DNA from: Aeromicrobium sp. A1-2
GTDB taxonomy: Bacteria > Actinomycetota > Actinomycetes > Propionibacteriales > Nocardioidaceae
NCBI RefSeq assembly: GCF_003443875.1
Contig: NZ_CP027482.1
Location: 2,728,001-2,792,000 of the forward strand
DNA length: 64,000 nt
Reading direction: 5' to 3'
The position numbers and the translations under genes are program-made. Shown here piece by piece: positions 3,119 to 5,442 of this stretch. A model generated the notes under the pieces. The model was not told where the DNA came from. It saw only the letters and a program-made list of their open reading frames with translations, and made no database searches. Position 1 is the stretch's first letter, and each line of letters begins with the position of its first letter.

Positions 3119-3415
3119 TCAGACCGCGACGGCCACCTCGGCCACGCTGCCCTTGGCGGCCGTGACAGGGCTGTCGACCGAGATCGCCCGGGGGGCCAAC
3201 GTGCGTAGCGTCCACTCGCCGGGGCCGGCGAAGAACCGGAACTGGCCCGTCACCGAGGTCGGGACCTCGGCGGTGAACTCACCGGTGCGATCGAGCAGGC
3301 GGACGTACGCGTTGCCGACCGGCTGGCCGTCACGCGTCACGATGCCCTGGATCACGGCCTGGTTGGCCACGTCGACACCCTCGAGCGAAGGTCCGCCCTT
3401 GATCGCGCCGCACAT
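3119..3415 (-). CDS. DUF1416 (SseC-like) small protein
   Basis: 98-residue protein opening MCGAIKGG and holding a transthyretin-like beta fold signature (QGIVTRDGQPVGNAYVRLLD). It belongs to the DUF1416 family, always found directly behind rhodanese genes in actinobacteria (SseC in mycobacteria). Its ATG overlaps the sseA stop codon (ATGA type, base 3415), which shows translational coupling. The near N-terminal Cys2 is a natural candidate for a sulfur-accepting residue, but that is inference; no activity is established. Last gene of the leftward operon, followed by a hairpin. Confidence 0.85.
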   Translation of the reverse strand: MCGAIKGGPSLEGVDVANQAVIQGIVTRDGQPVGNAYVRLLDRTGEFTAEVPTSVTGQFRFFAGPGEWTLRTLAPRAISVDSPVTAAKGSVAEVAVAV

Positions 3416-4263
3416 CAGGCAGCACCCGGCTCGTCGCCCAGAGCGACCGGAACGCCGCGCAGCGAGCCATACTCGCTCCACGATCCGTCGTAGTTCTTGA
3501 CGTTGTCGTGGCCAAGGATCTCTTTGAGCACGAACCACGTGTGCGAGCTCCGCTCACCGATGCGGCAGTAGGCGATGGTGTCCTTGCCTTCGTCCAGACC
3601 CGCTCCGGCATAGAGCGTGGCGAGCTCTGCATCGCTGCGGAAGGTGCCGTCGTCGTTGGCAGCCTTGCTCCACGGCACATTGCCCGCGGTCGGGATGTGC
3701 CCGCCGATCTGCGCTGCCTCCTGCGGGAGGTGGGCCGGCGCGAGCAGGCGACCTGCGTACTCGTCGGGGCTGCGGACGTCGATCAGGTTCTGGACGCCGA
3801 TCGCGCCGATGACCTCGTCGCGGAACGCCCGGATGCTGTCGTCGGGCTGCGTGGCGGTGTAGACCGTGGCCTCGCGGCTCGGCACCTCACTGCTCAGCTC
3901 ACGGCTGTCGAGCTCCCACTTCTTGCGGCCGCCGTCGAGCAGCCGAAGGTTGTCGTGACCGTAGTACTTGAGGTACCAGTAGGCGTAGGCCGCGAACCAG
4001 TTGTTGTTGCCTCCGTAGAACACGAGGGTGTCGTCGGTACCTACGCCCTTGGCCGACAGGAGCGCCTCGAGCTTGTCCTTGCCGATGAAATCGTGGCGGA
4101 CGCCATCCTGAAGGTCGGCCTTCCAGTCGAGCTTGATCGCACCGGGGATGTGACCCTTGTCGTACGCCTCGGCGTCCTCGTCGACCTCGATGAGGACGAT
4201 GGTCGGGTCGTTGAGGTTTTCCTCGACCCAGTTTGCTGTGACGAGCGCTGATTCGCGGCTCAT
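3415..4263 (-). CDS. sseA: Thiosulfate/3-mercaptopyruvate sulfurtransferase (two-domain rhodanese)
   Basis: 282 residues, the usual length for tandem-domain rhodaneses. The N-terminal domain (about 8-130) is the inactive structural copy; the C-terminal domain (about 150-275) carries the catalytic loop CRIGERSS with Cys233. The enzyme moves sulfane sulfur from thiosulfate or mercaptopyruvate to a thiophilic acceptor through a Cys persulfide. CRIGERS is the loop of the actinobacterial CysA/SseA group. Lies 69 bp behind the DUF4395 gene and overlaps the DUF1416 gene. The same gene order occurs in mycobacteria beside thiX and glnR, which supports the call. Confidence 0.92.
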   Translation of the reverse strand: MSRESALVTANWVEENLNDPTIVLIEVDEDAEAYDKGHIPGAIKLDWKADLQDGVRHDFIGKDKLEALLSAKGVGTDDTLVFYGGNNNWFAAYAYWYLKYYGHDNLRLLDGGRKKWELDSRELSSEVPSREATVYTATQPDDSIRAFRDEVIGAIGVQNLIDVRSPDEYAGRLLAPAHLPQEAAQIGGHIPTAGNVPWSKAANDDGTFRSDAELATLYAGAGLDEGKDTIAYCRIGERSSHTWFVLKEILGHDNVKNYDGSWSEYGSLRGVPVALGDEPGAA

Positions 4264-4332: not shown

Positions 4333-4770
4333 TCAGGCGTTGACCGGCGTGAGCCGGCGGACCGCCAGGTAGAGCTCGCAGCCGAGGCACAGGCCCACGG
4401 TTGCGTTGAGCAGTGCCGCCATCAGCGCCAACGCCGCGGCGATGTAGGCGACCGTCGCGGCCCCGCCGAGGAATGCGAGCAGCGCGACCGCCGTGAACGA
4501 CAGCCCGACGATCTGGGCGAATCGGGGCGGCCGGGCGTCCTCGAGCTCGGTCGGTGCGCCGATCCGCGGCCGGATGAAGCGGGCGAACACGATCGCGTAT
4601 GGCGAGTACTTGAGGCCGACCAGCGCCGCGACGGCGAAGATCGCAACCTGCGCGGCCAGCAACCACACCCCGACCTGGCCGGGAATGACCAGGACGAGAG
4701 CGAGGACCGTCGCAGTGGCGGTGGCGGCGACCCGAAGGCCTCGGGGGTCGACGAGATGGGGTTGGGACAT
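4333..4770 (-). CDS. DUF4395 integral membrane protein
   Basis: 145 residues with about four hydrophobic helices (around 12-30, 33-52, 85-105, 105-122) and a CLGCELY motif near the end that could bind metal or form a disulfide. It matches the DUF4395 family, which accompanies thioredoxin and sulfurtransferase genes in actinobacteria. Start ATG 4770 is fixed by AGGAG 7 nt upstream; an open frame runs further upstream but only because it reads through the leader ORF in another phase. Probably a membrane partner in sulfur or thiol redox chemistry; this is inferred from neighbours only. Confidence 0.8.
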   Translation of the reverse strand: MSQPHLVDPRGLRVAATATATVLALVLVIPGQVGVWLLAAQVAIFAVAALVGLKYSPYAIVFARFIRPRIGAPTELEDARPPRFAQIVGLSFTAVALLAFLGGAATVAYIAAALALMAALLNATVGLCLGCELYLAVRRLTPVNA

Positions 4771-4789
4771 GATGCTCCTGCGCTGAAAG

Positions 4790-4816
4790 GCACGGCCCGG
4801 CCTGGCCTGGGCGTGC
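4790..4816 (-). promoter_or_regulatory. Hairpin between the Cys leader ORF and the DUF4395 gene
   Basis: On the minus strand GCACGCCC (4816-4809) can pair with GGGCCGTGC (4798-4790), with one bulged C, around a 10-nt loop. It starts 22 nt past the leader stop and ends 20 nt before the DUF4395 start codon, close to its ribosome binding site. This is the position expected of an attenuator or an RBS-masking stem. Which alternative fold competes with it I could not settle by eye. Confidence 0.45.
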
Positions 4817-4838
4817 GAGAACTGACGGACGAGGGGTG

Positions 4839-4919
4839 TCAGCGCATTCGACACAACGACGAGGACGTGCAGCAGTTGTCCACTGCTCGGCGCCGCGTCA
4901 GGTGTGTCGTCTGGAACAT
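4839..4919 (-). CDS. Cysteine-rich leader peptide ORF (26 residues), putative attenuator
   Basis: Short ORF found by reading the minus strand: start ATG 4919, stop TGA at 4839. The peptide contains LTRRRAVDNCC followed by T and SSSLCRMR, so it has a Cys-Cys pair and a third Cys in 26 residues. Arg-rich 'LTRRR-x-VD' leaders with clustered Cys are known upstream of sulfur assimilation genes in actinobacteria, where ribosome pausing at Cys codons reports cysteine supply. The ATG lies 7 nt behind a TACTCT -10 box with no ribosome binding site, the leaderless layout usual for such leaders. It precedes DUF4395-sseA-DUF1416, a sulfur operon. Regulation is inferred; the ORF and its Cys codons are seen. 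Confidence 0.72.
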   Translation of the reverse strand: MFQTTHLTRRRAVDNCCTSSSLCRMR

Positions 4920-4925
4920 GGCTCA

Positions 4926-4957
4926 AGAGTAGGGCGGGACATCCCTCGAAGCGTCAA
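4926..4957 (-). promoter_or_regulatory. Promoter of the leader-DUF4395-sseA operon
   Basis: Minus strand: TTGACG (4957-4952) and TACTCT (4931-4926) with a 20-nt spacer, longer than ideal. The last T of the -10 box is 7 nt before the leader ATG, so transcription would begin at or next to that ATG. Confidence 0.5.
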
Positions 4958-5022
4958 ACATCTCGCCATGTGGACAGTTGTCTCACATGTTGGCTCGGTT
5001 GCTGCAATGGGAGGCCCCGAAG

Positions 5023-5442
5023 TCAGGGGATGGCCTCGCCGAGCGCAGCCAGGACCTGCTCGCGTCGCGGGAGCCCCGAGGCGCGGGTCGAGATCGCACC
5101 ACCGGCGTCCAGCACGAGGACCGTGGGCGTGCGCATGATGTTGAGTCGGCGAACCATGTCGAGGTGCGCCTCGGCGTCGATGTCGATCGTGACGACGCCA
5201 TCAAGCTTGGCCGCGACATCGTCGAGCAGGATCCGCGTCGCCCGGCACGGCGAGCAGAATGCGCTCGAGAACTGGACCAGCGTGGCTCGCTCCCCCAGAG
5301 CGCCCCCGAGGTCGGCAGCTGTCAGGACCTCAGCACCCGCCGGCACCGTCGACGCAGCGAACCGCCCGTTGCGGGCCTTGAACGCCATCGCCGTGATGGC
5401 CGTCAGCAGCACAGCCACCAGGAGAACGACGATTCCGATCAT
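5023..5442 (-). CDS. Membrane-anchored thioredoxin-fold protein (ThiX type)
   Basis: 139 residues: one N-terminal membrane helix (2-20), then a thioredoxin fold with active site CSPC (Cys63, Cys66) in FSSAFCSPCRATR and the cis-Pro region MRTPTVLV. The folded part would face outside the membrane or lie on it, acting as a disulfide reductase or thiol carrier. The corresponding mycobacterial gene beside sseA is called thiX. A TAAACT box (5454-5449) ends 7 nt before the ATG, so it may have its own leaderless promoter even though it also sits in line with the upstream genes. Confidence 0.85.
   Translation of the reverse strand: MIGIVVLLVAVLLTAITAMAFKARNGRFAASTVPAGAEVLTAADLGGALGERATLVQFSSAFCSPCRATRILLDDVAAKLDGVVTIDIDAEAHLDMVRRLNIMRTPTVLVLDAGGAISTRASGLPRREQVLAALGEAIP

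Follow-up and report, generated by a model that had tools for sequence, protein, structure and literature searches.

An invariant choice of cysteine codons in a conserved leader peptide ahead of the DUF4395 sulfur operon of Aeromicrobium

The polycysteine leaderless attenuators of Canestrari 2020 reportedly operate through an RNA structure that hides the downstream RBS until ribosome pausing frees it. Leaders with ribosome occupancy were described in mycobacteria in 2015, ahead of cysA2/Msmeg_5788 and nirA/Msmeg_4527 (PMC4633059). Cysteine-dependent attenuation in M. smegmatis is attributed to work from 2020 in passages of PMC9031893 and PMC13236596, and the latter passage terms this attenuation translational. 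The leader analyzed here also resembles the Trp/Leu/Ile leader attenuators, including those of actinobacterial ilvB and trpE, in combining presumed regulatory codons, a short and probably leaderless ORF and a metabolic operon; it differs from them in lacking a terminator hairpin followed by a U-tract, and its likely output would be masking of a Shine-Dalgarno (SD) sequence rather than termination.

Within the window, by which we mean the whole 64,000-nucleotide stretch of Aeromicrobium sp. A1-2 DNA analyzed here, 26 codons followed by TGA encode the peptide MFQTTHLTRRRAVDNCCTSSSLCRMR on the minus strand, upstream of a sulfur operon. The leader and operon comprise the following features.

4926..4931, minus strand: −10 hexamer TACTCT, at −12 to −7 from the leader ATG, implying a leaderless start
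4839..4919, minus strand: leader ORF, MFQTTHLTRRRAVDNCCTSSSLCRMR*, present in 47/47 genus loci, pN/pS 0.17
4333..4770, minus strand: DUF4395 membrane protein, first gene of the operon (PF14340, 130 bits)
3415..4263, minus strand: two-domain rhodanese, a thiosulfate or mercaptopyruvate sulfurtransferase (PF00581)
3119..3415, minus strand: DUF1416, SseC-like (PF07210, 130 bits)

The rhodanese additionally matched NF008557 with an E value of 2e-31, below the cut-off of that model. A thioredoxin-like gene with a CSPC motif (5023-5442) is located directly upstream in the same orientation. An earlier sequence-only reading of this DNA had described the 26-codon ORF with its Cys codons and an exactly spaced −10 box, all of which we located as described. 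The same reading considered the target operon unusual, a view that we do not retain, since leaders of this type were reported before cysA2/Msmeg_5788 in mycobacteria (PMC4633059).

To place the leader among described families, we scored it against the curated NCBIfam models. The window peptide reached 19.8 bits (E 4.6e-4) against Ms5788A (NF042933), short of the cut-off of 45, while a common genus leader scored 25.5 bits, the Nocardioidaceae type 37.7 bits, the leader of another actinomycete 46.4 bits and a mycobacteria-like leader 56.6 bits, the last query being composed of an approximate N-terminus and the core of locus L101. Given that its relatives grade into Ms5788A, this kind of leader is not new and its target is the classic operon; judged by these profile scores, the window leader is a divergent, Cys-poor relative of the mycobacterial Ms5788A leader. 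Both share the core LT[KR]RRAVDxC...C, the leaderless spacing and the position before DUF4395 and thiosulfate sulfurtransferase genes. Unlike Ms5788A, the window leader carries no polycysteine tract, having two conserved Cys (three in the window copy) as opposed to about 5-8, and N/H instead of L precedes the first Cys. Against NF042934, a putative leader peptide (attenuator domain) model, the window leader matched the full 19-position profile with 15.7 bits, where the cut-off is 27. What is novel in this leader is the invariant choice of its Cys codons, UGC at the first and UGU at the second.

A DUF4395 match was obtained in 49/49 Aeromicrobium genomes, and the leader was found ahead of the DUF4395, rhodanese and DUF1416 genes in all 47 loci with an intact upstream region, each of which was oriented; these constitute the genus set, the 2 remaining loci being contig fragments. 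Genomes G037 and G044 each contained a second DUF4395 match, the one in G044 being weak and inside a long frame. The conservation check called for by the sequence-only reading was thus run, and the ORF and the Cys codons 16 and 23 were kept in every genus locus. The distance from leader to DUF4395 ranged from 37 to 131 nt across the genus and was 68 nt in the window copy. For the core LTRRRAVDNCRTRSSLCR, the mean pN was 0.062 and the mean pS 0.357 over 666 pairs (pN/pS 0.17), a ratio indicating purifying selection on the core peptide. Furthermore, searching with a degenerate DNA pattern that permitted TGC or TGT at both Cys positions detected exactly one leader copy in 111/121 family genomes, and the reversed pattern yielded 0 matches in the same 121 genomes. 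The many short ORFs in this region would be in keeping with a chance ORF, but that explanation is refuted by the genus and family counts and the empty reversed control, and we assign it practically no weight. The leader was also present in 54/80 named DUF4395 loci of a genome collection, in genera including Kribbella, Nocardioides, Actinomadura, Microbispora, Frankia and Kutzneria; a 55th match, in locus L166, was discarded as an artefact. The 26-codon leader peptide is real and strongly conserved.

The −10 element showed comparable constancy. TAnnnT was positioned at −12 to −7 from the leader ATG in 36 of the 47 Aeromicrobium loci and one base further upstream in the other 11, and it occurred at leaderless spacing in 52/54 named leaders; a sigma-70 scan returned no match. 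Judged by this spacing, the leader mRNA would be leaderless, with transcription starting at 4919. Conservation and promoter spacing together support the earlier proposal of a cysteine-type leader, presumably leaderless, ahead of a sulfur operon.

Subsequently, we compared the Cys codons, which occupy positions 16, 17 and 23 in the window copy.

4872..4874, minus strand: TGC codon of Cys16, the first conserved Cys; same codon in 47/47 genus loci
4869..4871, minus strand: TGC codon of Cys17, an additional, lineage-specific Cys shared by 4/47 genus loci
4851..4853, minus strand: Cys23 codon TGT, invariant rare codon and proposed main sensor, TGT in 47/47

The adjacent Cys-Cys pair had initially been highlighted, but it is not the conserved sensor, given that codon 17 encodes Cys in so few loci whereas codons 16 and 23 do so throughout the genus, most of whose leaders have two Cys. 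Probably it is the second conserved Cys, encoded by the rare TGT, that acts as the constant sensor. In the DUF4395 genes of the same genus loci, TGC was used 94 times and TGT 0 times. The second Cys was encoded by TGT in 111/111 family matches (among the matches listed), in 33/35 leaders outside the genus and in 54/54 named leaders, a set that includes Aeromicrobium records. Moreover, the Cys23-type codon sits 2-3 codons before the stop in 47/47 genus loci, so that a ribosome paused there would cover the stop region.

For the majority of leaders, the U in TGT has as its partner an A close to the leader 5′ end, and a change to TGC would cost several kcal/mol. In the remaining leaders, this U has no partner or faces a G, and TGC would leave stability unchanged or increase it; TGT is nonetheless retained, and RNA pairing is therefore insufficient as the sole reason for TGT and accounts for its conservation only in part. 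UGU is thus kept at the second Cys even where UGC pairs as well or better, while UGC is kept at the first. We tentatively suggest, as an idea worth entertaining although we would not yet bet on it, that UGU at the second Cys serves as a dedicated slow sensor codon in actinomycete Cys leaders, kept against strong UGC usage, and that sensing would proceed through codon-specific decoding by the single tRNA-Cys together with the conserved nascent peptide rather than through runs of Cys.

The nascent peptide could also make a contribution of its own, wherein the basic segment LTRRRAVDxC, once inside the exit tunnel, would aid arrest at the second Cys and the signal would possibly extend beyond Cys-tRNA, for example to redox state. 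The non-Cys residues are strongly conserved while synonymous change is free, as the pN/pS of 0.17 indicates, and the segment LT(R/K)RR.VD.C recurs across families despite their differing N-termini. However, RNA helices that recur are built from the same codons, and RNA accordingly explains some of the constraint on this segment; we regard a contribution of the nascent peptide as rather unlikely.

These helices, and the other predicted structures of the leader and spacer, are located as follows.

4903..4909, minus strand: helix H1 5′ arm CGACACA, codons 4-6, predicted
4849..4855, minus strand: helix H1 3′ arm UGUGUCG, spanning the Cys23 codon, predicted
4872..4886, minus strand: apical hairpin GCAGU-GGACA-ACUGC, in which the Ala12 codon pairs with the Cys16 codon
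4838..4842, minus strand: helix H2 5′ arm CUGAC, at the leader stop codon, predicted
4822..4826, minus strand: helix H2 3′ arm GUCAG, predicted
4792..4816, minus strand: spacer hairpin GCACG...CGUGC, stability not above shuffles

In each of the 47 genus loci, the leader RNA folded more stably than synonymous shuffles did on average (mean z −1.67), with p<0.05 reached singly in about 45% of genus leaders, and the window leader RNA gave z −2.75 and p 0.007 against codon-usage-matched synonymous shuffles; these stability values refer to the genus loci only, as some starts outside the genus were misplaced at an internal Met. Within the window, the fold of the leader ORF (z −1.89, 5/200 shuffles as good) and that of the 5′ region as a whole (z −2.58, 3/200) exceeded shuffles, whereas the spacer fold did not stand out from shuffles (z −0.87, matched by 42/200). 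On these fold predictions, the structure resides in the leader ORF rather than in the spacer. The hairpin previously noted ahead of DUF4395 does exist as a stem at 4792-4816, but its stability is ordinary. Scanning the locus against Rfam, with E values up to 1 admitted, gave no relevant family.

Two leader helices recurred, H1 and the apical hairpin. For H1 (codons 4-6 with 22-24) and its inner extension, 83.5% of cells were paired compared to 16-50% when the arms were slid, and the H1 alignment contained one double change. The Ala12 codon was GCA or GCG in 47/47 loci, never GCC or GCT, with GCA in 33 against a GCA background of 91 of 1356. This restriction at codon 12 (4884-4886) fits a base pair between that codon and the U in the first Cys codon. 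For H2, loci L013 and L020 carry GCTGAT with ATCAGC, both sides having changed (by eye). The excess structure bears on a further alternative, namely a functional micropeptide acting in trans without attenuation, which would account for the peptide conservation; set against it are the RNA structure, the fixed place before DUF4395 operons, the leaderless spacing, the retention of a rare Cys codon at a single site and the gradation into the leader family, and we consider it highly improbable.

The best explanation, and in our assessment a likely one, is a cysteine-responsive ribosome attenuator ahead of the DUF4395 operon, for which the following elements near the first gene are relevant.

4775..4779, minus strand: DUF4395 Shine-Dalgarno AGGAG, predicted accessibility 0.04 free
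4839..4846, minus strand: UGCGCUGA, leader end, complementary to the SD-abutting sequence, without covariation support
4779..4786, minus strand: UCAGCGCA, partner of the leader end in the predicted fold, overlapping the first SD base

Under this attenuator model, transcription would begin at the leader AUG (4919), so that ribosomes would load on a leaderless mRNA and translate the leader. Without a paused ribosome, leader and spacer would fold such that the DUF4395 SD region is paired with leader sequence, the SD with the leader 5′ end AUGUUCC and the SD-abutting bases with the leader stop region; translation of the operon would then be weak. When Cys-tRNA runs short, the ribosome would pause at the Cys codons, chiefly at the UGU of codon 23, where, by covering the H1 3′ arm together with the stop region, it would release the SD; more DUF4395 and sulfurtransferase gene products would then be made.

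The predicted accessibility of the window SD rose from 0.04 in the free RNA to 0.42 when a ribosome was modelled as masking the RNA through the leader stop, a rise to be read with the caveat that downstream RNA tends to be freed whenever RNA upstream of it is masked. No compensatory changes occurred within the genus in the SD-sequestering helices UGCGCUGA/UCAGCGCA and AUGUUCC/GGAGCAU, and SD sequestration is therefore put forward conditionally. Across the genus, SD accessibility was not below that of synonymous shuffles (mean quantile about 0.48), the window copy having a quantile of 0.05; it was below the shuffle mean in 28/35 leaders outside the genus, some of whose starts were taken too far downstream. 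The variable spacer, 37-131 nt in the genus, is a further point against the attenuator model. Nevertheless, chiefly because of the parallel with M. smegmatis, we consider SD unmasking the likeliest output.

The same leader and cysteine sensing might instead have a transcriptional output, in which pausing alters termination in the spacer by Rho or another factor. Such an output would suit the long leader-to-gene spacer (68 nt in the window copy), the Streptomyces leader attenuators that have no typical terminator (PMC8079986) and the missing SD-sequestration signal in the genus relative to synonymous shuffles. However, a terminator scan found 0 intrinsic-terminator-like sites (GC hairpin then U-tract) before DUF4395, and the mycobacterial relative is reported as translational in the passage of PMC13236596 mentioned above; we judge this output to be unlikely.

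Upstream of the promoter, a possible transcriptional layer was noted.

4959..4990, minus strand: putative operator, half-sites GAGAC / GTCCAC with about 10-bp spacing, by eye

The half-site array lies at about −75 to −38, by eye in the same place across the genus loci, and its 22-bp core occurs once in the window. A 15-bp NdgR motif has been reported for sulfur genes of S. coelicolor, including cysA (PMC4340878); the array resembles this Streptomyces motif, and the transcriptional layer it may indicate is a lead only. Three sulfur genes share the array (window 4959-4990, L054 about 1404-1443 and L130 about 1478-1517), the others in the same genome being a sulfite/nitrite-reductase-type gene and an O-acetylhomoserine sulfhydrylase gene. 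A search of this genome with NF042934 gave one further credible leader, in L054, and five other weak matches, inside open frames of 214-643 aa, were set aside. This second candidate Cys leader, MIAAQTLRLVVRLHVDLGRVHNMMCR (L054 1483-1563, plus strand), lies before a gene for a ferredoxin-type sulfite/nitrite reductase; it has a single Cys, encoded by TGT, and Gly occupies the first Cys slot (by eye). It appears to be the counterpart of the Ms4527A leader before nirA and, unlike the window leader, stands ahead of another operon and has one Cys codon.

These findings extend cysteine attenuation before DUF4395-type operons, as the probable function of the leader, from mycobacteria to Aeromicrobium and most of the sampled family genomes, in leaders that are too Cys-poor for current models to call, the window copy itself falling below the curated Ms5788A cut-off. 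The codon rule, UGC at the first Cys and UGU at the second, could help separate the contributions of tRNA charging, RNA pairing and the nascent peptide. For Aeromicrobium, the leader probably allows the sulfur operon to be turned on under cysteine shortage.
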